Under the pieces are notes generated by a model, which saw only the letters and a program-made list of their open reading frames with translations, ran no database searches and had not been told where the DNA came from. A DNA stretch of 30,662 nucleotides from a virus: the IMG/VR virus record IMGVR_UViG_3300044971_000362, positions 1 through 30,662 of that record. The stretch is one strand, 5' to 3'. Made by a program: the position numbers and the translations under genes. This document shows, piece after piece, positions 1 through 30,662 of this stretch; positions within the stretch are counted from its first letter, which is position 1; the number at the start of each line of letters is the position of its first letter.

Positions 1-146
1 AATAGCCTCTCCACTTTTTCCCGTGATTGATTTGAATAGATGTAGGATTTCCTGCTCCGCCATCAAAGATTTCTGGGTATATTGTTGTAAGTCTTTTGAT
101 GTATTGATAAAAAAAAACAGGCAACCGAAATTTACCCTCATATTAG
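1..146. repeat. Left copy of the 146-bp terminal overlap (circular closure)
   Basis: Identical to 30517-30662 except for G at 127 versus A at 30643. The sequence beyond each copy joins into one uninterrupted gene, so this is the overlap of a circular assembly, or a short terminal redundancy, rather than two biological repeats. The true circular length would be about 30,516 bp. Confidence 0.95.
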
Positions 147-631: not shown

Positions 632-841
632 TTATATGTTTATTGTTGTTGGTAAATTATTTTGACAATGTATTAATGCAAACTCTAATTGCTTAACTCT
701 TGATTCTGCTACATCTCTTTGTGTTTGTAATATCATTGCCCATTGTTTAAAGTATTCTACATTGTTTTCTAATCCATCAATGTATTCTTGTAGTTCTTGT
801 CTTTCTATATTATCTAACTGAGATTGCATACTTGCCGGCAT
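632..841 (-). CDS. Small coiled-coil protein following the large terminase
   Basis: This is a 69-aa product rich in Gln, Glu and Leu. The segment from about residue 8 to 55 is predicted by eye to be one long helix or coiled coil, with no membrane segment or signal peptide. Its start overlaps the end of the large terminase by 32 nt, and its stop lies 1 nt before the ATG of the chaperone-like gene, so it sits inside a packed operon. A second in-frame ATG at 829 would give 65 aa and may be the true start. I do not recognise the family. The position between terminase and head/tail genes suggests a structural or packaging role, but that is a guess. Confidence 0.65.
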   Translation of the reverse strand: MPASMQSQLDNIERQELQEYIDGLENNVEYFKQWAMILQTQRDVAESRVKQLEFALIHCQNNLPTTINI

Positions 842-1982
842 TAATTTGTTTCTGTGTCAGTTTCATCATCACAGCATAACGCAATGCGTCTATGAGATGA
901 TTGAACGCATCTATTGGTTTATCTATTGTATTTCCTTCTTTATCAGTTTGCCACTCATAAGAATACAATTCATTTATTAAGTTTGTCGAATCCTTAGTTG
1001 CAATCAAATCCCAATTCATCATTTGCTTTATACCAAACGAAATACTATCAGGCCCTTTCTTTACTGCTTTAATATTAAATCCCATTCTATACAACTCCTC
1101 GTTTAATCTGGGTTCCGCACTATCTGCAAATATCTCAATCTTACCGATACCCATTCTATTTAGTTTATCTGCTATATCATTTGTAGTTAATCCTTTCTCA
1201 TACAACATTTCTTTGATGTATAACTTATCACCTCTCCTATATAATTTTATAACTGCTGTCTCATCATTTACAAATCCATAGTCAATTGAGTAGCATAGCA
1301 ATTCGTTTTCATCTATGTCATCTGCTTCGCATGTATCGAATTGGAATATCTGTTTATCGTTGCCGGCAAACTCTCCTAGTCCATATATCCTATAATACTT
1401 TTCACTACGATTTTGTAGTGCTTCTATTGCTTTAACCTGGTCTTTAGAAAGGTATGGATTGTTCTTATATGTGGTATGAAATAAAGTCACATCATCTTCC
1501 GTTCTATTTTTGTATAACCAATGTGTAGGGCCAAAGCTAGGATTGTAAGAATAGATAATCTTTTCAGTTGTTCTAATACCTAATTGGAATGCATCATCCT
1601 CTGATAATTCCTGTGCTTCATCTACCCATAGTATTTGTCTACGACTTCCTCGCACTTTATCTGATATGTCAACTGAAAAGAATTCAATTGTGCTACCATT
1701 GTCAAACTCATATATTCTATCGGTTGCATTCCATCTTATATCTTGCCATATGTTTAATCCTTGCATTATCTCTATAAAGTCTTTCATTGCAGATTTCTTT
1801 AAAGAGGGCAATGTCTTTCTAATAATGGATATATCTTTTCTTTCGTTTAATGCAATCACTATCAGATATTGTACAAGTGCGTATGACTTACCACTACGGG
1901 TTGCACCGCAATGATGTTGTATCCTTGTATTGCACTCCCATGCATTCTCTAAAGTAATCGTTGAATTAATTTCCAAGTTCAT
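810..1982 (-). CDS. terL: Terminase large subunit (ATPase/nuclease packaging motor)
   Basis: The 390-aa protein has the two-domain layout of PBSX/Terminase_3-type large terminases. Near residue 27 there is a Walker A motif GATRSGKS, and near residue 115 a Walker B segment ILWVDEAQ followed by a coupling-motif-like SYNP near residue 146. The C-terminal half has the RNase H-like nuclease signature: SIDYGF near residue 230 with the first acidic residue, IFADSAEP near residue 285, and FNHLIDALRYA near residue 360 supplying the last acidic positions. It packages DNA into the prohead through the portal. Length is slightly short but within family range. The gene overlaps the small terminase by 17 nt and the following coiled-coil gene by 32 nt. 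The assignment is firm from motifs. Confidence 0.95.
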   Translation of the reverse strand: MNLEINSTITLENAWECNTRIQHHCGATRSGKSYALVQYLIVIALNERKDISIIRKTLPSLKKSAMKDFIEIMQGLNIWQDIRWNATDRIYEFDNGSTIEFFSVDISDKVRGSRRQILWVDEAQELSEDDAFQLGIRTTEKIIYSYNPSFGPTHWLYKNRTEDDVTLFHTTYKNNPYLSKDQVKAIEALQNRSEKYYRIYGLGEFAGNDKQIFQFDTCEADDIDENELLCYSIDYGFVNDETAVIKLYRRGDKLYIKEMLYEKGLTTNDIADKLNRMGIGKIEIFADSAEPRLNEELYRMGFNIKAVKKGPDSISFGIKQMMNWDLIATKDSTNLINELYSYEWQTDKEGNTIDKPIDAFNHLIDALRYAVMMKLTQKQINAGKYAISVR

Positions 1983-3019: not shown

Positions 3020-3455
3020 AGTAGCCCCTGGTGTCCGGGAATTCTGTTCTAATCATATTTCTACTCTTTCCATTTGGGTTATTTTCTTTCTTTGCTTCTG
3101 GTGACCTTCGGTCTAAAATCCAGGTCATTATGCCATTCTCTTCTATCTCTTTTAATTTTTTATCATAGTGTGCAGTCATAATACTTCTATCACCTGTCTT
3201 TTCAAATTCAATCCAAGCTTTCCTTAATTCTTTTCTTATACCACAAAATCTTGCAAACGCTTCATTAGTATAATTGTCAAATGGGTATTGTTCTTTCTTT
3301 GGAGTTTTTGCTCTCTTCTTTGCTTCAATTATCTTTTGTGCAGCATTAACACACTTTGTACATTTCCATATAGGTTTAAGTGTAAAGAATGATGCATTAC
3401 ATTCTTTGCATGTTCTTTGTTCTCCTACTTTACGATTGAATGGTTTCTTAAACAT
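3009..3455 (-). CDS. Zinc-ribbon protein of unknown function
   Basis: The 148-aa basic protein has two CxxC pairs near the N-terminus (CKEC near residue 16 and CTKC near residue 32), spaced like a small zinc ribbon. A Lys/Arg-rich stretch and a helical middle follow (residues 60-110), ending with DTRGYYED. I recall similar Cys-pair proteins with this C-terminal flavour in Bacteroidota phages, without known function. Nucleic-acid binding is plausible from the ribbon and charge. It starts on the last base of the glycosyltransferase stop codon (1-nt overlap), so it is translationally coupled to the glycan cassette, yet it does not look like a sugar enzyme. Confidence 0.7.
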   Translation of the reverse strand: MFKKPFNRKVGEQRTCKECNASFFTLKPIWKCTKCVNAAQKIIEAKKRAKTPKKEQYPFDNYTNEAFARFCGIRKELRKAWIEFEKTGDRSIMTAHYDKKLKEIEENGIMTWILDRRSPEAKKENNPNGKSRNMIRTEFPDTRGYYED

Positions 3456-4078
3456 TACTGATTATTTAATAGTTTATGCCATTCCTTTGTATCGTTATCT
3501 CTTACTTCTCTTACATCCATTCTGTCAGATGATGTAGACATTTTAGTTTTTATATTCATTCCTATTAATTGAAATATGTTTTGGTTAGTTCCATGTATCC
3601 AATTATCTCCATACCATATCTTTAATCTTTCTGGTATTGGTTTCCATATATTCTTATTAAATGCAAATAGACAACCCCATCCTCCTGCATTGGTTTTATT
3701 ATCATACATTTCAATTGCAACTTCTATTTTATCTTCGGTATAGTTTTGAGAATGTGAACCTATAAACCCAGCATCTAATAAGTTTAATGCTTGAGACATA
3801 TAGTAAAAGTATTCATTTGGGTTAAACAAAATGTCGTCATTACAAATAGTTACATAGTCATACTTTGCAATACTAACTCCTTTGTTCCATGCTGCATTAA
3901 CATATGTGTTAGTCTCTTCTTTTATATGTACTAACTTATCCATTACTATATCTTTTGTTGGTGCATTATCAATTAAAATAATTTCACCTACCATTTCACA
4001 ATTAGATAACTCTTCTAATAAAGGTGTAGTATATTCCGATGCCCATATCGTTGGGATTATTACAGAGAATTTTTCCAT
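3455..4078 (-). CDS. Family 2-like glycosyltransferase (GT-A fold)
   Basis: The 207-aa protein opens with the GT2-type strand FSVIIPTIWAS, followed by GEIILIDNAP near residue 32 and NAAWNKGVSIAKYDYV near residue 62. YVTICNDDILF near residue 75 provides the metal-binding acidic pair in the usual DxD position (here NDD). NAGGWGCLFAFNKNIW near residue 130 and WYGDNWI near residue 155 match the acceptor side of this fold. It would transfer a sugar from a nucleotide donor. It overlaps the upstream methyltransferase by 19 nt. Small GT2 enzymes of this type are frequent in phages and may glycosylate virion proteins or alter host surface glycans; which applies here cannot be read from sequence. Confidence 0.85.
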   Translation of the reverse strand: MEKFSVIIPTIWASEYTTPLLEELSNCEMVGEIILIDNAPTKDIVMDKLVHIKEETNTYVNAAWNKGVSIAKYDYVTICNDDILFNPNEYFYYMSQALNLLDAGFIGSHSQNYTEDKIEVAIEMYDNKTNAGGWGCLFAFNKNIWKPIPERLKIWYGDNWIHGTNQNIFQLIGMNIKTKMSTSSDRMDVREVRDNDTKEWHKLLNNQ

Positions 4079-4653
4079 TGGTCTATTGATTTAATGTTTA
4101 ATAATTCATGTTTAAGTAATTCATAGTTTTCCCAAGTTAAATCAATTGGATTTTCAAAACCTATATTGTCAGCATTAAGTCTAATACATCCAATTCCCCA
4201 GTCTGTATCTATTGTTGATACATCTAATCCATCTTTTGCTTTGATGTCAACAATGGACTTCCAAACGTCTCCTGTCCACTCTTTACCATTGTCTTCAATA
4301 CTTGTTTGATATTCTGCAGTTGGTAAACAATCATGCACTAATATAGTTCCATTATCTGAAAGGTGTTTAAGTGAATTAAGAATATCTGCAAGTGATTGTT
4401 CTCTTGTATGTAATCCATCAATAAAGATTATATCATACTTAACATTATCCTCTAATGATTTGAAAAACATATCTGATGTTAATTCTACAATTCCTTTATT
4501 TAATAAGTCTGTAATTGCAAATGGTTCTATACCTGTTTTATTTTTAATCACAATCTTGTCGTAATTAGAATGTGGAAATTGTACTCCTATCTCTAAATAA
4601 GAATTGTAGTTGTATCTTTCAATAAGATAATTGATAATGTCTGTTCTAAGCAT
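4060..4653 (-). CDS. SAM-dependent methyltransferase (Methyltransf_24-like)
   Basis: The 197-aa protein shows the class I methyltransferase pattern. YLEIGVQ near residue 19 corresponds to motif I, and KYDIIFIDGLHTREQ near residue 73 is the hallmark acidic-loop motif of the Methyltransf_24/cephalosporin-hydroxylase-like group. NGTILVHDCLPT near residue 100 is the following strand and loop. SAM would bind the glycine-poor N-terminal loop. It overlaps both neighbours (8 nt with the upstream 217-aa gene, 19 nt with the glycosyltransferase), so the three are almost certainly co-translated. In such cassettes the substrate is usually a sugar hydroxyl; that is inference. Confidence 0.83.
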   Translation of the reverse strand: MLRTDIINYLIERYNYNSYLEIGVQFPHSNYDKIVIKNKTGIEPFAITDLLNKGIVELTSDMFFKSLEDNVKYDIIFIDGLHTREQSLADILNSLKHLSDNGTILVHDCLPTAEYQTSIEDNGKEWTGDVWKSIVDIKAKDGLDVSTIDTDWGIGCIRLNADNIGFENPIDLTWENYELLKHELLNIKSIDQWKNSL

Positions 4654-5299
4654 GTCTTGTTAATTTATATAATGTATTCATTTCTCTTGTCACAAATCTT
4701 TGGTCTAATATCTTTACATTCTCTTTTCCAACTCTATCTATTGTTGGTTGATATAGATTATGTAATGCTATTGCAATTCCTTTATGTGGTCTTAATTCTG
4801 CATCTTCAATACTTTCAATAATACTTCTAGTCCACTTATACGGAAATCCAAAGAATGTATCATTTACTAATGGTAGAGTTTCATGTGCAGGCTCTCTCCA
4901 TAAAAAGTTTACTTTGTCAAAATCCCAATCGTATGTTGTAAATGGATTGTTTAAAAACTTCTGGTCAAATCTAGCTCTTATAACATAATCAAAGTCCCAC
5001 TCTAATACTTCATTTAATCCAGCAATCACATTAACTGCCTGAACTGTTTGACCATTTGGAATATATTGATTATGTTCATCTATAAACTTTGCTTCTGTAA
5101 AGTTATTATACCTTTCCAATATATCATTACTCTTAATGGTTTGGTATGTATAAATGAAAGTAAATACATCATGACCTTGTTTGACAAGATAGTCAATTAC
5201 GTTTTCATTAAACGAATCAACTGCATCTTCATAATTTCTATAACGATACTTACTTCCATCTTCATAGGATACTCCTGCGATACTAATTGCAATTCTCAT
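4646..5299 (-). CDS. Putative glycosyltransferase-like protein
   Basis: The 217-aa protein starts with MRIAISIAGVSY, a Rossmann-like first strand, and carries YVIRARFDQKF near residue 105 and DFDKVNFLWRE near residue 127. The R-x-R-x-D arrangement resembles the nucleotide-sugar site of small glycosyltransferases found in capsule and phage clusters. The remainder (NDTFFGFPYKW, residues 145-155) is aromatic-rich like an acceptor pocket. No metal-binding DxD is obvious. It is the first gene of the overlapping glycan cassette, 8 nt downstream of the sigma-factor gene, and its end overlaps the methyltransferase. Assignment is by pattern and context, so moderate confidence. Confidence 0.6.
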   Translation of the reverse strand: MRIAISIAGVSYEDGSKYRYRNYEDAVDSFNENVIDYLVKQGHDVFTFIYTYQTIKSNDILERYNNFTEAKFIDEHNQYIPNGQTVQAVNVIAGLNEVLEWDFDYVIRARFDQKFLNNPFTTYDWDFDKVNFLWREPAHETLPLVNDTFFGFPYKWTRSIIESIEDAELRPHKGIAIALHNLYQPTIDRVGKENVKILDQRFVTREMNTLYKLTRHA

Positions 5300-11355: not shown

Positions 11356-12846
11356 TTATTTTTCAGGTACACAATTTGGAACCTGTCTACCATCTTTGTC
11401 TTTCATTCCAATCATTATATATCCATCTTGGCAGGGATTTGGTGATTCTTCAGCCATTGTAATCGGCCCACCTACGACCCAGGCGTTGCACGTACGAGAT
11501 GCTGCACATTTAAAATCAAATGCTTCACAATATCCTAAGTCACCTGCTTCGATTGTATCCCACTCATCTTTCTGTGTTCCTCCAATACCTTCAGCAATAC
11601 AATTAAGTATCTCTTTTGTTTGTAAGAAGAAAGAACAATTTCCACATAATGATTTCTTAGCTGATTCCACATCACCTTTAAACATATCTGCTTTAGCTTT
11701 CCAATAATCTTCATTTGGTTCATTTGGGTTTAAAGGGCCATAATTTGCAACATCAATTGCATTTTGTCTATTCTTTAAATTCACCTCTATATTCTGTGTT
11801 GCTTCAGGACATCCTTCTTGCATTTTTACACTACCTGATGGTTGGAATTGACCTGGATAAGATGATGTAATACCAACTGCTGTTTCTAATTCAACAAACC
11901 CAGCATCCATTTGACCCAATTCTTTTAATTTAGATTCTGACCAACTTTTACCTGCAAGTCCTCCCCATAAATAAAAACTAATTGTGCCACAAGCTTCCAT
12001 ATCATTCTCATCATAGTATGCCTCTGCTCTACTTAAATAGCTATACATTCTTTTTATAGTCTCAACCGATAAAGGTTTTTTCTGTGCTAATTGTTGTGCT
12101 CTTATTTTACCAACAGGTGTTGCACATTTATTTCCTAATTTATCATTTAACTCAATTCCTTTTTTTGCATTGTTAGATACTGAATCTGGATAATCACTAT
12201 ATGATTCCATTTCAACCTTTTCCTTTGATTTATAACGGTTGTCTTTCTTTAGTATACGTTTTATCATTCCTAACATTTCAATCCCCTCTTCCTCCTCTAA
12301 TTGACAAATAAAGGTATCGTCCTGTATTGTCATTGAAACTTGCTTATGTTCAAAACTTCCCTCGATTGAGAACGCATTTACAACGCCGGTTTTTACATAA
12401 TTATTCCAAATGTCATCATTATTTATTTTCATTAAACCATACCAAGTTCCAGCCGGCAAATTAAACCCGTATGTAGACGCTTTATCAGCAGTTCTACTTT
12501 TTGAAACCCAGGATTCTACAAGTGTCACATCTTCGATTGGTTTAGAATGTTCTAATGTTGCTTTTGAATTATAGTTTCTAAGCATATATCTTTGAGCGAT
12601 TTTTTCAATCGTTTGAGCTGTAAAATACACGAAATAAGTTTCACCTTTACCGTCTACTCTAATTATCTTTTTCTCGGGGATAAGCAGCGGGCCAGCTACA
12701 ATGCGCTGCTCGTCATCTGCAGTTGCAAACTTAATATCTTCTTTACCAAACCACACGAAGTCTTTTTCTATGGCACCTTTTTCTACAAGTGATATTGCAT
12801 ATACCTCATCGGTTTCATCAGCTAATAATAATTCAAATGTCTTCAT
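11356..12846 (-). CDS. XkdF-like putative prohead protease fused to Cys-rich C-terminal domain
   Basis: The 496-aa protein appears to have three parts. Residues 1-170 resemble XkdF/S78-type putative phage serine proteases: AISLVEKGAIEKDFVWF, GPLLIPEKKI, then YNSKATLEHSKP with a candidate catalytic His and FSIEGSF with a candidate Ser. Residues 215-315 (YPDSVSNNAKKGIELNDK; CATPVGKIRAQQLA; TISFYLWGGLAGKSW) match a helical domain often fused to phage proteases and portals. Residues 395-465 hold Cys residues in CGNCSFF, LNC, YCEAFDFKC and SRTCNAWV, recalling a metal or iron-sulphur binding domain seen in environmental phages. Maturation of the head is the usual role, yet the gene sits after the tape measure, far from the capsid gene. 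Confidence 0.75.
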   Translation of the reverse strand: MKTFELLLADETDEVYAISLVEKGAIEKDFVWFGKEDIKFATADDEQRIVAGPLLIPEKKIIRVDGKGETYFVYFTAQTIEKIAQRYMLRNYNSKATLEHSKPIEDVTLVESWVSKSRTADKASTYGFNLPAGTWYGLMKINNDDIWNNYVKTGVVNAFSIEGSFEHKQVSMTIQDDTFICQLEEEEGIEMLGMIKRILKKDNRYKSKEKVEMESYSDYPDSVSNNAKKGIELNDKLGNKCATPVGKIRAQQLAQKKPLSVETIKRMYSYLSRAEAYYDENDMEACGTISFYLWGGLAGKSWSESKLKELGQMDAGFVELETAVGITSSYPGQFQPSGSVKMQEGCPEATQNIEVNLKNRQNAIDVANYGPLNPNEPNEDYWKAKADMFKGDVESAKKSLCGNCSFFLQTKEILNCIAEGIGGTQKDEWDTIEAGDLGYCEAFDFKCAASRTCNAWVVGGPITMAEESPNPCQDGYIMIGMKDKDGRQVPNCVPEK

Positions 12847-12876: not shown

Positions 12877-15636
12877 TTATAATGTTGCTGCTCTATTAGT
12901 TCTTCTATCTAAAGATTGCTGAGAACTTACAGAAGTGCTCACAACATATGCCTCAATCGGCTTCTGGGTGGTTTGTGCAAGTGTTTGAGCAATTTGTTGA
13001 GTTGGGTTTGAAGCAACTCCTTGTGTTATTTGTGGTGCTGCAACTGCTGCTATTTGTGGAGCAGTTGGTAAAGTAGGAGCCGGTGTAGATGCACTACTCA
13101 CACCTGTACTAGTTGTGGCAGCTGCACCACCACCTTCAAACTTAGTTGCATCTATCTTTTTAATATTAACTGCCGTAGCTACTGCTAATGCTGCTGCATT
13201 GACACCTTTTACAATCCAATCTACCGGAGATGGCAATACTGATGGTTGAGTAAGTATTTGAACCAAACCACTTGCTGCAGATAATAATGCAGTTGCTTTT
13301 TGTAATTTCTTTCTTTTATTAAATGCTGCTTCTGATGTTTTAGCTTCTTCGTCATATCCACTTGCAATTGCACTGGTTAAACCAGCAACTGCATCTATTG
13401 TCGCAGATATAACTTTACCTGTCGATGCTAATTCATCTTCATCTAATTGTTGTCTTAACTTGCTATATTTATCTTTAATAGCAGTCTTTTCACCTTCTGT
13501 TAAATCTAATGCAGCTAATTCTTTTGCCTCTTCTTCTGCAAGTATTGCTGCTCTATTTTCAAAATATGCTTTTGTTCCTGATAATAATGATTGTCCTCTT
13601 AATTCTAATAATCTTAATTCATCATCATACTTTTTAAGAATTTTATCATTATCTTCTTTTCTTGCATCATCATCAATCTTCGTTATATCATTTGTATATG
13701 CTTGCTTTAATAAAAGTCTTAAATTACCTTTATCATCTTCTGATAATTTTATAAAGTTTTTATCTGCTTCTAAGTCAGCTAAATCTTTTGTATATTTATC
13801 CTCTCGTTCTTTTCTACTTCTTTCAACCTCATCCGCAGTTGCAGCAGTTTTAATTGCTTTAACTTTCTCATTAAACTCTTCTTTTGACTTTACCTCATCT
13901 GCATCATATTTTTTATTTATATCTGCAACTCTACTATTATACGATTCAGTCAGTTTCGTAGTATCAATTCCTAATCTTTCAGCTTCTTTTATTAAATTAT
14001 CATATGCAATTTTAGCATCGTCTAATTCTTTCTTTCTGGCTTCTTTTCTTAAATCCTCCGAAGTCTTTACATACTCAGCAATTTGTTTATTTAAATCAAC
14101 TGCATATTTTTGATTTATTTGAATTACTTTTAAATTATATGCTTCTTCTAATTTTGTAGTATCTAATTTGAACTTTTCAGCATTCTTTAATAATTCTGTA
14201 TATGCCATCTTAGCATCATCCAAATCCTTTTCCCTTGCAGTCTTTTTATCTAAGTTTTCTAATTTAGAATACTTTTGTGTAATCATTAATAATTCTGCTT
14301 CATAGTCAGATTTTATCTTTGTAATATCTTCACCAGCTTTTTTAGCATCCTTTATTCTTGTTTGATATACAAGACCTGCAGCTTTGATTTCATCATCTTG
14401 AGATTTAATACTAACCTCATTTAATTTAATTTCATTAGCTTTTTTAACTGATTTGATGTAATCCTCAATAGCTTTCTTTGTATTCTCTATTTGTTGAGTT
14501 CTACTTTCACCACCCTTTTTAGCAGTTTCTTCTGCTTTTGCAGTTGCAACAAGTGTTTGTTCGTATGGTTTTAATTGCTTTAATACAGTCTCTGTCTCTG
14601 TGTATATACCAGTAAGACTTTGTCTCCATTTTTCATTTTCTGCATTAACCTTAGCAACTTCTGCTTGTTGATTTTTAAGACCTGATAAAAATTGATTTGA
14701 AATCTGTGCACTAATATTTCCACCTGATTTAATAACATTCCATGCACTTTCCCAAAAACCAACATTCTCTAATAATGATTTTTGTTCAATTTCAGCAATC
14801 TTAATACCATTCTCAGCAATCTTTTGAACAACTAATTTAGCTTTAGCTTCTAATTCATATTGCTTTATTTTTAACTTAACAAATTCAAGACCTTGCTTAT
14901 TAAGTTTATTCTCTTTATCTATAAACGCATTAAAGCCAGGATATGTCTTTTTAAGTTCTTCTATTTTTCTATTTTGCAATTCTCTATTACCATTGACTTC
15001 TGTAAGAATGTCTAATGTATTTTGTAATTGAACTGCTTCATCACTTTGAACCTTTGCTAATTCTTTACCTAATTTATTACTCTCTTTAAGTTCTTCATTG
15101 AAATTATTAAATGCATTGATTAGTAATCCAATTGCTACTACGATTGCACCAATACCTGTTGCAGTTAATGCCGCTGCAAATCCCTTTGCAGCAACTGATG
15201 CTGTATTTTGTGCAATACCTAATCCTATAAATGATTTTTCTAGAAATCCATTTACTACAGTATATACTTTTGTAATACCTGTAAGATTTAATACATTCTT
15301 ACCAATATCTAAAAAGTCTTTACCTAATTCAACAACCGACTTACCTAAATCAGAAAACTTAATTAAAGTAAATTGTTTAAGTGCAGTTACTGTTGATGCT
15401 GCAGCAGAACCAATAGTCCCAATAGGGCCAGGTAATCCACCTAATACTTCTAAAAAGTTACCTGCTCCTTGTCTGGCACCGGCTAATGAATCTTGTATAT
15501 CATCAATACGAGCTTGGACTTTTGTAAACTCTTCAGTACCTGCAGGAATATCTCTTAATTCCTTTTTTAATTTACGAAGTTCTCCAACAGATGCTTCGGT
15601 ATCAACATTTACTTTAAAATCTATTTCCCTTGCCAT
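12877..15636 (-). CDS. Tail tape measure protein
   Basis: The 919-aa protein is Lys/Glu/Ala-rich and largely helical, with long charged repeats (for example KARKKELDDAKIAYDNL-like units around residues 490-620) typical of a tail-length ruler. A hydrophobic stretch at about residues 135-175 (GFAAALTATGIGAIVVAIGL) and a second at about 782-829 (AAALAVATAVN) could insert into membranes during DNA ejection, as in other tape measures. The C-terminal 90 residues are Ala/Thr/Gln-rich. No peptidoglycan hydrolase motif is seen. It starts inside the end of the 50-aa gene (16-nt overlap). Its place downstream of the fibre gene is unusual, since tape measures normally precede baseplate genes. Confidence 0.9.
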   Translation of the reverse strand: MAREIDFKVNVDTEASVGELRKLKKELRDIPAGTEEFTKVQARIDDIQDSLAGARQGAGNFLEVLGGLPGPIGTIGSAAASTVTALKQFTLIKFSDLGKSVVELGKDFLDIGKNVLNLTGITKVYTVVNGFLEKSFIGLGIAQNTASVAAKGFAAALTATGIGAIVVAIGLLINAFNNFNEELKESNKLGKELAKVQSDEAVQLQNTLDILTEVNGNRELQNRKIEELKKTYPGFNAFIDKENKLNKQGLEFVKLKIKQYELEAKAKLVVQKIAENGIKIAEIEQKSLLENVGFWESAWNVIKSGGNISAQISNQFLSGLKNQQAEVAKVNAENEKWRQSLTGIYTETETVLKQLKPYEQTLVATAKAEETAKKGGESRTQQIENTKKAIEDYIKSVKKANEIKLNEVSIKSQDDEIKAAGLVYQTRIKDAKKAGEDITKIKSDYEAELLMITQKYSKLENLDKKTAREKDLDDAKMAYTELLKNAEKFKLDTTKLEEAYNLKVIQINQKYAVDLNKQIAEYVKTSEDLRKEARKKELDDAKIAYDNLIKEAERLGIDTTKLTESYNSRVADINKKYDADEVKSKEEFNEKVKAIKTAATADEVERSRKEREDKYTKDLADLEADKNFIKLSEDDKGNLRLLLKQAYTNDITKIDDDARKEDNDKILKKYDDELRLLELRGQSLLSGTKAYFENRAAILAEEEAKELAALDLTEGEKTAIKDKYSKLRQQLDEDELASTGKVISATIDAVAGLTSAIASGYDEEAKTSEAAFNKRKKLQKATALLSAASGLVQILTQPSVLPSPVDWIVKGVNAAALAVATAVNIKKIDATKFEGGGAAATTSTGVSSASTPAPTLPTAPQIAAVAAPQITQGVASNPTQQIAQTLAQTTQKPIEAYVVSTSVSSQQSLDRRTNRAATL

Positions 15637-15774: not shown

Positions 15775-18700
15775 TTATGTAGTTGGATTTATGATTAGAT
15801 AATTAAATGTAATACTGGTTGAACCAACAGATGAATCAATTGTTGCTGAACCGGCAGTTTGAGCTGCAACCCATAATCTATAATCTCCTCTTGCTGTAAG
15901 TAATATTATTGAATTTGATTGTATCAATGAATTACTCAATGTTGTTTCTCCACCACTATCTGTACTTAAAGTAACTGTATTAGCAGGTTTATCACCACCT
16001 ACATTTAATTTAATTCCACCTTGGAATGACCATGCACTTCCTGAATATTGTGCTTTTATTTGTCCTTCTCCATCTGCAAGAATGATATTATTAGTTAATA
16101 ATTCACCTGCACTTCCTTGATATCTACCTAATATTGTATTGTTACTACCACTAATATTGTATCCTGAATTTGCACCTATAAATGTATTATTGCTACCACT
16201 TACATTAAATCCTGCAGAGTCACCAATTGCAGTATTCGATTCACCAGTTGTATTTTTAGTCAATGCACTTGTACCAATACCAACGTTAGCTTGACCCGTT
16301 GTATTACTTGATAAGGCTTCACTACCCATTGCAAAGTTTTTACTTCCAGTTGTAATTAATAATGCGTTATTACCTATTGCAACATTCTGACTAGACCCAC
16401 TTGCAAATCTCATTGCACCTTGTCCGATTGCAATTGCTATTGTATTTCCTAATGCTAATGGTTGTGCTCCTGCATCACCCATACCTAAAGCATTCAAACC
16501 TAAGTATACGTTTTGGTCATATCCACTTCTATCAACAAAAAGTATACTACCTGACATAGTCAAACTACCAGTTATTCTTTGGTTACCTATAAATGAACTA
16601 TTTCCATTTACTAATAAACTACCTGTTATAGTTAAACCATTTGCTATTTGTATTGCTGCAGTTGCACCATTCTTTTGTAATGCTATATTACCTGCTCCAT
16701 CTGCTAAAATAACATTGTTTGCTAATGGTGAAGTTAATCCTGTTATACCTCTACCGATAATTGTATTACTCTCCATTGAAGAAGGTAATCCACTATCCTG
16801 ACCTAATACAATATTTCTACTACCAGTTATAAATCCTTCTCCAGCTACACTTCCTCCGTGCATTACTATATTGTTAGAGCCTGATATTAATTGAAATAAT
16901 GCGTTGTGTCCAATTGCTGTATTATATAATGACCCAGTTCCAGTATTTGCTCCTATTGCAGCCAATACACCTCTACCTATACCTGTATTTCTATCACTAC
17001 TGATTGCTGCAGCAAATGCACTTGAACCAATAATAGTATTTCTAGTTCCTGTTACTAATGCAGTTCCTGTACCTCCACCTATAACTGTATTTGCACCCAT
17101 AGTGGCTGCTGAACCTGCAGACCCACTACCTAAATTTGATAATGCAGATATTCCGATAGCTATATTATTTGAAGTACCTGTAAATTGTTGTAATCCTAGA
17201 GCAAAATTACCAATTGCTATATTATTTGCAGCTTTATTTAATCTTAATGTATTACTTCCTATACCAATCGTAGAAGTACCTATATTTGCTAATAATGACC
17301 CACTACCAATTCCCATGTTACCAACATTAGAGCCACTTCCTATACCAACTATTAATCCATTAAAACTACCATTCAATGTTGAAGTAATACTACCTGTAAT
17401 GATTTGATTACCTACAAATGAGTTAGAGCCAGTTGTTGCAAAACTACCTGTGTCAATGCTTGCACCTCCACCACTACCTGTGTCTACTGTTAAATTAAAT
17501 GTTGTTGCATCTCCTTTTGTAAATGTTAAAACATTACCCGCAACACTACCTGTCACCATTAAACTACCTGTATATGTTGCTCCACCACTCCACGAACCAG
17601 ATTGTCCACCTATTGTAGCAAACTTTTCGTCAATTGAAGCAGTGTATGTAGCAAGTGTAGAGTTCTTAGTATCTTGCGATTGTGTAAATGTATTTAAAGC
17701 AGCTACTGAAGTATTCAAACTTGCAGTCGTACTTTCTATATTTGTTAATCTAGTATTAGTAGATGATGTGTATGTGTTGAATGATGCAGTAGATACTAAA
17801 TTAGTTCCACCACCAACATCCACTCTATTCATAGTTGCTATTACAGAAGGAATTGCAGTGTAATTACTAGCTGCTGCTTCTGCGAATAACTTTGTATGTC
17901 CACCATTACTTTGCCATGCTAATTCAAATACATCATTTGCATTTGCAGAAACAACAAAGTTCCATGCTGCTACATCTGCTTCATTATTTCTTAATACTAA
18001 TTTAGTAGAAGTATCAGGAACATTAGTTCCATTTTTCTTCAACCATATCCATAATGTATCTGCACCGGTGTCTGCTAGGACTTGTGCAGAGAATTGTAAA
18101 TCATATGTTCCTGCTGCTAATACTTTAATACCTCCACTACCTGAAATTATTACTCCATCGGAAATATCTGTGTTATTCAATTTCATTGAGTATGCAACAC
18201 CAGCACTACCCGATTGAGTTGTAGTATCATAGAATGCTCCAAAACTACCTGTTACATAATTCAAACTTCCAGTTGTTACTGTTACTGGGAATGTTGTACC
18301 ATCACCCTTAGTAAAAGTAATTGTGTTTATAAATGCTGATGCAGTTACTAATAAACTACCTGTATTCGTTGTTCCGCTTCCACTAACATCAGGTATTACT
18401 ACACCGAATGTTGATGCATCACCTTTTGTAAATGTCAAAGTATTTCCACTAAAAGATGCAGTTACTAATGCTAAACTTGCAGAAGTAAATAAACTTGCAG
18501 TTGCACTATTCAATGAAGATGTTACACTTGCTAATGTAGAGTTCTTTGTATCTTGTGAAGCAGTAAATGCATTCAATGAAGTTAAATCGGTTGTTACTGC
18601 ACTACCTGTATTAACTGTAATGTTAAATGTAGATGCATCGCCCTTTGTAAATGTAATTGTGTTAAGATTTACCGATGCGGTTACTAATGAACTTGCAGTG

Positions 18701-20847
18701 ATTGCAGATGTTACATAACTTCCAGTTTGACCTGCTAAGTTAGTCCATTTAGTGTCATTAGATGCAGTGTATGAGTTTAATGATGTGTTGCCATTACTTG
18801 AAGTAAAACTATTTATATTAGTCAAAGAATTATTAACACTTGCAGTGTATGTAGCTAATGTACTATTCTTTGTTTCTTGTGATGCAGTAAATGCATTTAA
18901 AGATGTAATATCAACTGAACTTGTTTGTACAGGTGTTCCATTAACTGTCAAGCTACCTTGTACTTTTACACTACCTGAAAGAGTTTGTATGTCTGTCAAC
19001 TCATCTCCAAATTGATTAGAACCACTAGAATAAATTACACTAGCCGTTTCATAAGTTGTTTGAATATATTGGAACGATGCAGATACTGCAGTTATGTTTG
19101 TAAAGGTTTGGTTTACTGTAAAGTTATTATCTACGTTTGTTCTAGCAAAACTACCCGTTTCACTTTCGGTCACAAAACTTCCACTTTGAGAACCTAAATT
19201 GCTCCACTTAGTATCATTGCTACCAGTATACGTTGCAATAGTAGAGTTTTTAGTATCTTGTGATGCAGTAAAACTATTTAAATTTGTATTATCCCAACTT
19301 GCAGATTGTGAACCTATGTTAGAAAACTTTGTATCTACCGATGCAGTGTATATTGCTAATGTAGAGTTCTTACTATCTTGTGAAGCGGTGAATGAATTTA
19401 ATGATGTAATATCAGTTGATGTTGCACTACCTGTATTAATAGTTACCGCAAATGTTGTATTATCTCCCTTTGTAAAAGTAATTGTATTTAAGTTTACACT
19501 TGCAGTAATTAAGAACGAACCACTTTCAGTTTCAGTTACAAAACTTCCTGTTTGTGAACCTAAGTTAGACCATTTAGTATCATTACTTCCAGTATAAGTT
19601 GCTAATGTTGAGTTTTTAGTATCTTGTGATGCAGTAAATGCATTCAATGCAGTAATGTCAGTTGATGCTCCACCTGCAAATGAACTTGTTGCTACTGCAA
19701 CTGATACTCCATTTGCATTACCAACCCAAGCATATCCTTGTTGAATAGATGCTGTGAATGATGCTGATGGTATATTAAACGATGCAGTATTCATCGTAAC
19801 AATTGTACCATTTGTATCAACTATTTCTAATCTTGCATTTTTATTAGTTAACGCAATATATGGATTTAACGGCGATGTTGTATCTCTTAACGCGATTGTT
19901 GGGTCTGGCCCCTCTATTCCAATACCATTACCCGCTAGAGTAGTATTTATTTTCATACCACCAGCCAAAAGTATATTTAAATCATTTGCTTCTAATGAGA
20001 TATCATTACCATTAGTAGTTCCTATTTTTAGATATGGGTTTGTAATTACACCACCTCTTACAACAAATCCAATTTCAGTACTTGATGTTACCGATAAGCT
20101 ACCTGATATTCTTTGGTTTCCTATAAATGTATTACTACCTGTTGTTGCAAAGAATGAATTACTTACATATTGTGATTGTGTAAATGAATTTAAAGATTGT
20201 AAAGATGTAGATGAAGTTAAATAAGAACCACTAGCTGCAATCAAAGAATTAATTTGTGATTGTTGTGCCGCATCTACTGCTGCAACAGATGAACTGATTG
20301 CATAAGATGATGTAGCAGCGTTTAAATTACTTATAGAAATCCCCTGGCTTGCTGTGGTTGAGTTTAAATTACTAATTGATATATTGAGACTAGCCGAATT
20401 AGTTTCTAAGTTATTTAGTCTATTATCAGCAGAACTTGTAAATTGATTTAATGATGTGTTACCATTACTTGCAGTGAATTGATTTATGTTAGTAATCGAA
20501 ATATCAACACTTGCAGATTTACTTTCTAAGTTAGTTAGTCTATTATTTTGAGCAGTATTAGTTATATCATTACTACCTGTATAAGATGCTAATGTAGTAT
20601 TCTTAGTATCTTGTGAAGCAGTAAATTGATTTAATGAAGTCAAAGTTTGACCACCTACAGTACCTGCATTTGATGCAAATGATGCACTTAGTACAACCAT
20701 TGATGAAGTCAAATCATTAGTAATTAATGAATCTATCAAATCATTATTAAATGTTCTTGCTTCAGCAGCAGTTATACCACCGATACCATTGGTATCGTAT
20801 GTATTATTACTTGAGGTCTTTAATTGGGAGCGAGTTAAACTTGCCAT
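15775..20847 (-). CDS. Giant repetitive tail fibre / receptor-binding protein
   Basis: This 1690-aa Ser/Thr/Asn-rich protein is a mosaic. Residues 1-870 are coiled-coil-like repeats: seven copies of an FTxSQ(D/E)xKN motif and five TFTKGD beta units occur over the protein. About residues 865-1005 (AGVAYSMKLNNTDI, AGTYDLQFSAQVL, NDVFELAWQSN) resemble a C1q/TNF jelly roll. About 1172-1386 and again 1446-1589 carry tandem N-x-A-I-G-x-x-A-L units like YadA-type trimeric adhesin heads. The last 90 residues (RGDYRLWVAAQTAG) are a beta cap. It should form a long trimeric fibre that touches the host. No chaperone or cleavage domain is visible. Serine codon patterns leave several long antisense frames, which are shadows. 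Confidence 0.88.
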   Translation of the reverse strand: MASLTRSQLKTSSNNTYDTNGIGGITAAEARTFNNDLIDSLITNDLTSSMVVLSASFASNAGTVGGQTLTSLNQFTASQDTKNTTLASYTGSNDITNTAQNNRLTNLESKSASVDISITNINQFTASNGNTSLNQFTSSADNRLNNLETNSASLNISISNLNSTTASQGISISNLNAATSSYAISSSVAAVDAAQQSQINSLIAASGSYLTSSTSLQSLNSFTQSQYVSNSFFATTGSNTFIGNQRISGSLSVTSSTEIGFVVRGGVITNPYLKIGTTNGNDISLEANDLNILLAGGMKINTTLAGNGIGIEGPDPTIALRDTTSPLNPYIALTNKNARLEIVDTNGTIVTMNTASFNIPSASFTASIQQGYAWVGNANGVSVAVATSSFAGGASTDITALNAFTASQDTKNSTLATYTGSNDTKWSNLGSQTGSFVTETESGSFLITASVNLNTITFTKGDNTTFAVTINTGSATSTDITSLNSFTASQDSKNSTLAIYTASVDTKFSNIGSQSASWDNTNLNSFTASQDTKNSTIATYTGSNDTKWSNLGSQSGSFVTESETGSFARTNVDNNFTVNQTFTNITAVSASFQYIQTTYETASVIYSSGSNQFGDELTDIQTLSGSVKVQGSLTVNGTPVQTSSVDITSLNAFTASQETKNSTLATYTASVNNSLTNINSFTSSNGNTSLNSYTASNDTKWTNLAGQTGSYVTSAITASSLVTASVNLNTITFTKGDASTFNITVNTGSAVTTDLTSLNAFTASQDTKNSTLASVTSSLNSATASLFTSASLALVTASFSGNTLTFTKGDASTFGVVIPDVSGSGTTNTGSLLVTASAFINTITFTKGDGTTFPVTVTTGSLNYVTGSFGAFYDTTTQSGSAGVAYSMKLNNTDISDGVIISGSGGIKVLAAGTYDLQFSAQVLADTGADTLWIWLKKNGTNVPDTSTKLVLRNNEADVAAWNFVVSANANDVFELAWQSNGGHTKLFAEAAASNYTAIPSVIATMNRVDVGGGTNLVSTASFNTYTSSTNTRLTNIESTTASLNTSVAALNTFTQSQDTKNSTLATYTASIDEKFATIGGQSGSWSGGATYTGSLMVTGSVAGNVLTFTKGDATTFNLTVDTGSGGGASIDTGSFATTGSNSFVGNQIITGSITSTLNGSFNGLIVGIGSGSNVGNMGIGSGSLLANIGTSTIGIGSNTLRLNKAANNIAIGNFALGLQQFTGTSNNIAIGISALSNLGSGSAGSAATMGANTVIGGGTGTALVTGTRNTIIGSSAFAAAISSDRNTGIGRGVLAAIGANTGTGSLYNTAIGHNALFQLISGSNNIVMHGGSVAGEGFITGSRNIVLGQDSGLPSSMESNTIIGRGITGLTSPLANNVILADGAGNIALQKNGATAAIQIANGLTITGSLLVNGNSSFIGNQRITGSLTMSGSILFVDRSGYDQNVYLGLNALGMGDAGAQPLALGNTIAIAIGQGAMRFASGSSQNVAIGNNALLITTGSKNFAMGSEALSSNTTGQANVGIGTSALTKNTTGESNTAIGDSAGFNVSGSNNTFIGANSGYNISGSNNTILGRYQGSAGELLTNNIILADGEGQIKAQYSGSAWSFQGGIKLNVGGDKPANTVTLSTDSGGETTLSNSLIQSNSIILLTARGDYRLWVAAQTAGSATIDSSVGSTSITFNYLIINPTT

Positions 20848-29459: not shown

Positions 29460-29483
29460 TTTCTTTTTTTTTAATTTATGAAT

Positions 29484-30135: not shown

Positions 30136-30324
30136 TTAATTTGATGTAGGATAAGGAGATTGTGTTTTACCAATACCTTGTGCCCATAATCTACCATCAC
30201 AGCATTGTCTAGAGTATTTCTTTTTATCTTTACATAGACAACCCCTTCTACTTCCTTTACCAGGAACAGCTAGACCTTGTGTTGGGCCTAAGTAGATACC
30301 TTCCATTTGTGCTCTATTTGCCAT
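30136..30324 (-). CDS. Small Cys-rich protein, unknown function
   Basis: I choose ATG 30324 (MANRAQMEGIYLGPTQGLAV), which gives 62 aa; an upstream TTG at 30339 adds only five residues from the spacer. The core CLCKDKKKYSRQCCDGRLWA followed by QGIG carries four Cys residues in CxC and CC pairs, suited to one zinc ion. I recall the C-L-C...Y-S-x-x-C-C-D-G...Q-G-I-G pattern from small proteins beside capsid genes in Bacteroidota phages; its role is unknown. It lies between the frameshift gene and the scaffold. Confidence 0.75.
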   Translation of the reverse strand: MANRAQMEGIYLGPTQGLAVPGKGSRRGCLCKDKKKYSRQCCDGRLWAQGIGKTQSPYPTSN

Positions 30325-30361
30325 ATGACTATATAACAAAGTAAAAAGAATTTTTCCAATA

Positions 30362-30625
30362 TTATTTTATACCACTCATTATTTGTTTATGTAGCATATC
30401 TTGTACTAATGCAGTATCTGCTTTATACGCAAGATACAATAGACACTTCTCTAATGGTAGTTCAACAATAGTATCAAACTTTAAGATGTCTCCGTTTGCG
30501 AGTTCAACAATCGAAGAATAGCCTCTCCACTTTTTCCCGTGATTGATTTGAATAGATGTAGGATTTCCTGCTCCGCCATCAAAGATTTCTGGGTATATTG
30601 TTGTAAGTCTTTTGATGTATTGATA
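30362..30625 (-). CDS. -1 frame extension of the tail-chaperone-like gene (T part)
   Basis: After the T9 run (30633-30625) the -1 frame stays open for 87 codons to TAA 30364-30362. It encodes YQYIKRLTTIYPEIFDGG at its start, QINHGKKWRGYSSIVELANG in the middle, then DILKFDTIVELPLEKCLLYL. No ATG lies in this frame between an upstream TAA and the run, so it can only be translated by frameshifting or from a TTG at 30640. Fused to the first 174 codons it gives about 261 aa. The lysine/tryptophan-containing middle and the helical L-P-L-x-K-C-L-x-Y-L segment are, in my memory, recurrent in Bacteroidota phage proteins of this type. Confidence 0.68.
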   Translation of the reverse strand, partial: YQYIKRLTTIYPEIFDGGAGNPTSIQINHGKKWRGYSSIVELANGDILKFDTIVELPLEKCLLYLAYKADTALVQDMLHKQIMSGIK

Positions 30626-30662
30626 AAAAAAAACAGGCAACCAAAATTTACCCTCATATTAG
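30481..30662 (-). CDS. Zero-frame 3' end of the tail-chaperone-like gene (partial, from right edge)
   Basis: This is the right-hand copy of the gene described at 1-630, cut at its 5' side by the window edge. After the T9 run the zero frame continues for 47 codons as INTSKDLQQYTQKSLMAE and so on to NSQTETS, ending at TAA 30483-30481. It thus overlaps 30481-30625 with the -1 frame, so that stretch codes in two frames. Confidence 0.68.
   Translation of the reverse strand, partial: NMRVNFGCLFFFINTSKDLQQYTQKSLMAEQEILHLFKSITGKSGEAILRLLNSQTETS
30517..30662. repeat. Right copy of the 146-bp terminal overlap
   Basis: This matches 1-146 except for A at 30643 versus G at 127. In the zero frame of the gene the change is TTT versus TTC, both Phe, which looks like natural variation and not sequencing noise. 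Confidence 0.95.

Follow-up and report, generated by a model that had tools for sequence, protein, structure and literature searches.

A phage gene lying behind the terminase large subunit gene (TerL) encodes a short protein and, in the -1 frame, an extension of it, and the two are almost certainly joined by programmed -1 recoding, transcriptional or ribosomal, at an uninterrupted T run that is conserved throughout its relatives. Judged from the sequences, the slip probably takes place in transcription rather than in translation. The gene product is likely a tail assembly chaperone-like protein, which appears to work like the G/GT pair of long-tailed phages but is not filed here as a proven member of that class.

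The window, i.e. the whole stretch of DNA analysed here (30,662 nt, IMG/VR virus record IMGVR_UViG_3300044971_000362), is a circular phage genome judged complete by its end repeat, in which 146 nt are shared by both ends (1-146 and 30517-30662) with one mismatch. This single mismatch, at base 127 of the repeat, suggests strain variation within the assembled population. The two-frame gene crosses the circular join and has 221 codons once 146 nt are removed there (Table 1). Its codons 172-174 are TTT TTT TTT, past which the zero frame runs for 47 more codons and terminates at 30483-30481. The -1 frame is open for 87 codons past them, with its stop ending at 30362 and a predicted fusion of 261 residues; these counts, first given by a sequence-only reading of the window, were correct after the join. 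Removal of 145 nt instead of 146 produced an artificial fusion of both frames. On the given strand the run is an A9. No other coding run of nine or more A or T occurs in the window, the single further one being an intergenic T9 at 29464. Three uninterrupted contigs (L002, L003 and L016) carried a near-identical region with T9 and the two-frame layout in the absence of any join, and a contig-end artefact is therefore excluded.

Table 1. Coordinates of the two-frame gene, its slip site and selected neighbours in the window
Feature	Position	Strand	Remark
G-like zero-frame gene, N-terminal 210 codons	1..630	-	ATG at 630
Zero-frame last 11 codons and stop, across the circular join	30481..30516	-	30517-30662 repeats 1-146
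T9 slip site, first copy	109..117	-	codons 172-174; G (CTG) before, ATC after
T9 slip site, second copy in the terminal repeat	30625..30633	-	
-1 frame, T-like domain	30362..30658	-	98 codons open, 87 after T9
Dual-coding overlap after the run, on the end copy	30484..30624	-	141 nt to zero-frame stop
Terminase large subunit, conserved upstream neighbour	810..1982	-	
69-aa ORF between terminase and two-frame gene	632..841	-	detected in 13 compared loci
67-aa ORF directly downstream of two-frame gene	30136..30339	-	detected in 147 compared loci
Putative tape measure protein	12877..15636	-	weak PHROG match

The two halves and progressively more distant members served as queries against IMG/VR, and relatives were also sought among bacterial genome contigs and phage records. 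Profiles of both halves were run against all open frames of each locus, and the T run played no part in the choice. We gathered 532 related loci, some of which share a contig or belong to near-identical phages, and these contain 410 distinct sites. Both halves were present and -1 apart in 530 of the 532 loci, the remaining two being truncated by contig ends. All 530 assessable loci had an uninterrupted T run (T9 in 463, T10 in 66 and T11 in one); no run was shorter than nine T's, and no locus had a fused single frame. A short product and a predicted frame-shifted long product from one gene, the trait of G/GT genes, were thus encoded in 530 of 530 loci, which supports the G/GT-like two-frame expression at the T run that the sequence-only reading had proposed. 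That reading had also named what would speak against it. Relatives with one continuous frame or with no slip site did not occur among the 530. Runs of ten T's did occur, in the 66 loci mentioned, but they stood in another codon phase and left the frames -1 apart.

Cultured representatives include the Nonlabens phages P12024L and P12024S (T9), and prophages with the two-frame gene were found in the isolates Galbibacter pacificus CAA-3 and Flavobacterium sp. MFBS3-15. The two-frame layout was also seen in seven loci on chromosomes and in two further genomes, isolates among them. A scan of bacterial genomes with the close-family alignment returned no loci, and with the distant-family alignment it returned the seven; in an alignment of distant T domains the conservation was too low for profile scanning. 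The known hosts are mostly Flavobacteriia, and one locus lay in a bin assigned to Epsilonproteobacteria, perhaps through faulty binning. The earlier claim that the split at the assembly ends hides the gene from simple gene calling holds for the window, whereas in P12024L and P12024S the gene is annotated as two hypothetical proteins.

The suspected dual-coding region was borne out by resampling. When the -1 protein was held fixed and its synonymous codons were redrawn, the zero frame was expected to be open to its observed length in 1.3 of 77 sequences, and it was open in all 77; the reverse test, conducted likewise for the other frame, expected 1.7. The similarity of the zero frame among relatives was 32 standard deviations above the redrawn sets, a figure inflated by shared ancestry. 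Wobble positions in the overlap were slowed in both frames, the zero-frame value being 0.21 there and 0.47 in single-coded parts, and the -1 frame value 0.24 there and 0.43 in single-coded parts; the pairs were picked by divergence in the overlap, which biases these levels but not the pattern among positions. Across the relatives the two frames share 47-263 nt (median 164 nt) past the run, and the comparisons indicate that both frames are under selection across this long overlap.

The run was kept whatever its codon phase, and all three phases were used across the distinct sites: TTT TTT TTT (protein L-FFF-V/I/L), xTT TTT TTT Txx (V/L/I-FF-Y/W/C) and xNT TTT TTT TTx (S/G/A/N-FF-L/F). Fewer T's on one flank were offset by more on the other, and the total was never below nine. 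A FastTree tree of 200 tips, built with the slip site left out, implied at least 21 phase changes, and close pairs showed phase change too. If the flanks of the heptamer were independent, runs of 7-8 T's would be expected in about 81 of 354 distinct genes, and they were observed in 0 of 354; the sites share ancestry, so that this expectation and the P values are optimistic. G or C stood directly before the run at 394 of 410 sites, and all 87 Leu codons in this place had G or C as their last base, as compared to 19% elsewhere in the same genes. An in-frame heptamer of the X XXY YYZ kind, as in ribosomal -1 frameshifting, was present as T TTT TTT in every site analysed. No stem-loop signal beyond that of shuffled sequences was detected around the run (90 sites, mean z 0.1 downstream and -0.1 upstream, with pseudoknots outside the folding model), and a Shine-Dalgarno-like GGAG was found upstream of the run at 55 of 354 sites. 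Some phage frameshift sites have no stimulators.

Homopolymers are prone to error, the contig ends divide the window gene and the wrong 145-nt join fuses the frames, so that the true run might be T10 within one continuous frame of 261 codons. Such a sequencing or assembly error is scarcely credible and is refuted by the relatives: the two-frame layout holds in 530 of 530 loci, among them isolates of both phages and bacteria, the zero-frame tail is itself under selection, and the T10 loci sit unfused in their other phase. Long T runs are also mutable (PMC3711429), and replication slippage could in principle toggle T9 and T10 so that each particle makes one product; however, an on/off switch of this kind should leave some fused consensus, which was seen in 0 of 530 loci, and both products appear selected in all lineages, making phase variation very improbable. 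It is also highly doubtful that the -1 frame is a separate overlapping gene with its own start. GTG or TTG does occur early in this frame at 178 of 410 sites, and the P12024 annotation has two genes, but only 43 of 410 sites have an ATG in that frame no later than ten codons beyond the run, and a separate gene would leave the universal T9-10 run unexplained.

The choice of route is less sharp. A ribosomal -1 shift requires seven T's in the right phase, and transcriptional slippage requires a run of about the length of the RNA-DNA hybrid. We know of no ribosomal reason for G or C to precede the run; one might speculate that a firm G:C pair at the hybrid's upstream edge steers slippage to insertion. 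Nine A or nine T suffice for efficient slippage of bacterial RNA polymerase in vivo, and the enzyme has a hybrid of 9-10 bp (PMC5009743). For programmed transcriptional slippage, Tn with n>8 is among the listed motifs (PMC3711429); an uninterrupted A or T run of about nine or more is used in this process, and all 530 loci here have T9-T11. The rival route, in which the Phe tRNAs would slip back by one base on T TTT TTT in a programmed ribosomal -1 frameshift as in lambda G/GT and P2 E/E', is possible but doubtful. It is the established route for tail chaperones, P2 using T TTT TTG (PMC5009743), and the heptamer it needs, in codons NNT TTT TTT, is in frame at every site analysed. The heptamer alone, however, leaves unexplained both the absence of 7-8 T runs in any phase and the G or C before the run, no stimulatory structure was found downstream, and GGAG is upstream in only the 55 of 354 sites given above. 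On the other side, a reporter study found that seven or more T's are enough for some slippage by E. coli RNA polymerase (PMC6260861), and a sharp floor at nine is therefore not dictated by the polymerase alone. The F-F-F motif together with the heptamer also yields nine T's by itself in the close group of the window, which counts against a polymerase-only reading. Because the run length is kept in all phases, G or C precedes the run and RNA structure was not detected, transcriptional slippage is favoured, and both kinds of slippage may act together. The frameshift proposed by the sequence-only reading thus stands as two-frame recoding, and for the route the evidence points more to slippage in transcription than to a ribosomal shift.

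According to the transcriptional reading, normal expression would give the short protein G of 221 residues. In some mRNAs the RNA polymerase would slip on the T9-10 run and add one U, and a ribosome on such an mRNA would read the -1 frame and make G-T of 261 residues. If lambda gpG/gpGT is a guide, the tape measure protein would be coated by numerous copies of G and a small number of G-T, which would recruit the tail-tube protein and then leave, the ratio of the two products being taken from the same analogy. We are inclined, with modest confidence, to the view that in this flavobacterial phage group the ratio of the chaperone forms is set by the RNA polymerase through the (G/C)T9-10 run, with a long dual-coding tail. 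It is plausible, at a similar strength, that the run matches the length of the RNA-DNA hybrid and has been selected as such through changes of codon phase.

The assignment to tail chaperones comes from profiles and folds. PHROG 32199, whose function is unannotated, matched 76 of 76 G halves scanned, and phrog_38404, likewise unannotated, matched 42 of 77 T halves. PF10109 (tail assembly chaperones E, 41 and 14) matched 25 of 76 G members with a best value of 8.4e-5, each match being below the Pfam cut-off in each protein checked; phrog_166 (tail protein) matched 38 of 76 and phrog_3140 (tail assembly chaperone) nine of 76. The chaperone and tail matches fell at about residues 1-80 in the checked cases, and TAC_7-like profiles at about 7-75 in relatives. 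P2 gpE alone gave no significant alignment with the family in a direct profile comparison. Since the single matches lie below the cut-off and P2 gpE does not align, the profile links to chaperone families are suggestive. Structures of the G and T halves were predicted separately. A BFVD fold search returned a protein named tail assembly chaperone (E 0.069, prob 0.85); in a PDB fold search the zero-frame model had no match and the T domain only matches with Z<3. The T half was modelled as helices, and its core KKW..Y and PLEKCL..LA.K.D is conserved in close relatives.

Several uncultured-phage proteins of 226-267 aa in BFVD (A0A6J5N0W0, A0A516L5A8, A0A6J5SVK3 and others) gave fold matches to both halves, so that more distant phages may have the two parts fused in one frame, but no such gene occurred among the 532 loci. 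In Flavobacterium phage 6H (L155 9500-10927, gp10 and the gap behind it) the fold of gp10 weakly resembles the G half, and an unannotated T-like frame lies in the gap after gp10, upstream of the tape measure gene; neither a long T run nor a clear slip site was found there, and this locus may have either another recoding route or an error.

Wherever both were seen, TerL was followed by the two-frame gene. The sequence-only reading had called the terminase-side position atypical, which does not hold within the group, where the place beside TerL is conserved; the distance from the tape measure gene does hold in the window, where it is about 15 kb with head genes in between. In L453 and P12024L several genes separate it from the tape measure gene further downstream. 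The Galbibacter prophage has TerS and TerL, then the two-frame gene at the head of the tail module, followed by a pair of neck/tail-completion-like genes, a pair of large tail genes, the tape measure gene and a protease gene; P12024L is alike, and there too the two-frame gene heads the tail module. The gene thus does not stand directly upstream of the tape measure gene, a place usual for G/GT genes though not strictly defining. A two-product gene that is programmed but serves as a head-assembly or packaging partner would agree with the conserved TerL adjacency, with the far-off tape measure gene of the window and with the weak sequence links to chaperones. We consider this rather unlikely, as the tail PHROG and TAC_7 matches recur across members in the same N-terminal region and the two-frame gene heads the tail module in the prophages.

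Frameshifted tail chaperones have been known since lambda, and their recoding is textbook ribosomal frameshifting. As in lambda gpG/gpGT, one gene of a long-tailed phage encodes a short G and a -1 extended G-T, with the T domain in the -1 frame, but the slip site here is T9-10 instead of a mixed heptamer, and the gene follows TerL whereas that of lambda immediately precedes the tape measure gene. The overlap of 47-263 nt (median 164) also differs from the average of about 36 nt in G/GT genes (PMC10885494), which in general were treated by Xu et al. 2004 as cited in PMC5009743. P2 E and E+E' (PF10109, Phage_TAC_7) are similar in the -1 shift at a T-rich site and in the sub-threshold PF10109 matches of the N-terminal domain of many relatives; unlike here, P2 has T6G, E ends about 20 nt past the slip, and the tape measure gene directly follows. 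Slippage has been described in dnaX, in type III secretion and in IS genes (PMC5009743). The present gene resembles Thermus dnaX and Shigella spa13/mxiE in a run of about nine A or T, equal to the hybrid length, and in two products, there at a set ratio (PMC5009743, PMC3711429), but those are not phage tail genes, and slippage was experimentally shown there and is proposed here. A named homologue is gp40/gp41 of P12024L and P12024S (Inhavirus), a two-frame gene with T9 and the same TerL neighbour; it differs in its annotation as two hypothetical proteins and is only about 28% identical to the window protein. A search of the open-access literature, of limited coverage, returned neither a tail chaperone with transcriptional slippage nor this two-frame family.

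If the transcriptional reading is true, transcription and translation would be interchangeable for one conserved function across a whole phage group, and hundreds of natural slip sites would be available for gauging the requirements of Bacteroidota RNA polymerase. A function is also proposed for PHROG 32199 and phrog_38404. The records of P12024L and P12024S show that the long product can escape automatic annotation.

Some other features of these genomes were observed. A head maturation protease-like ORF (11356-12846 in the window) lies after the tape measure gene and not before the capsid gene, and the Galbibacter prophage has the same order. Many relatives carry fibre-like genes with repeated SGS/TASQ motifs between the 67-aa ORF and a 203-aa scaffold-like ORF (L037 5505-8039 and L148 7124-10729); this place is empty in the window, which has a fibre-like gene of 1690 aa elsewhere (15775-20847). 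Three adjacent ORFs at 3455-5299 of the window were judged by eye to resemble glycosyl- or methyltransferases; they have the terminase genes on one side and a sigma-factor-like ORF on the other.
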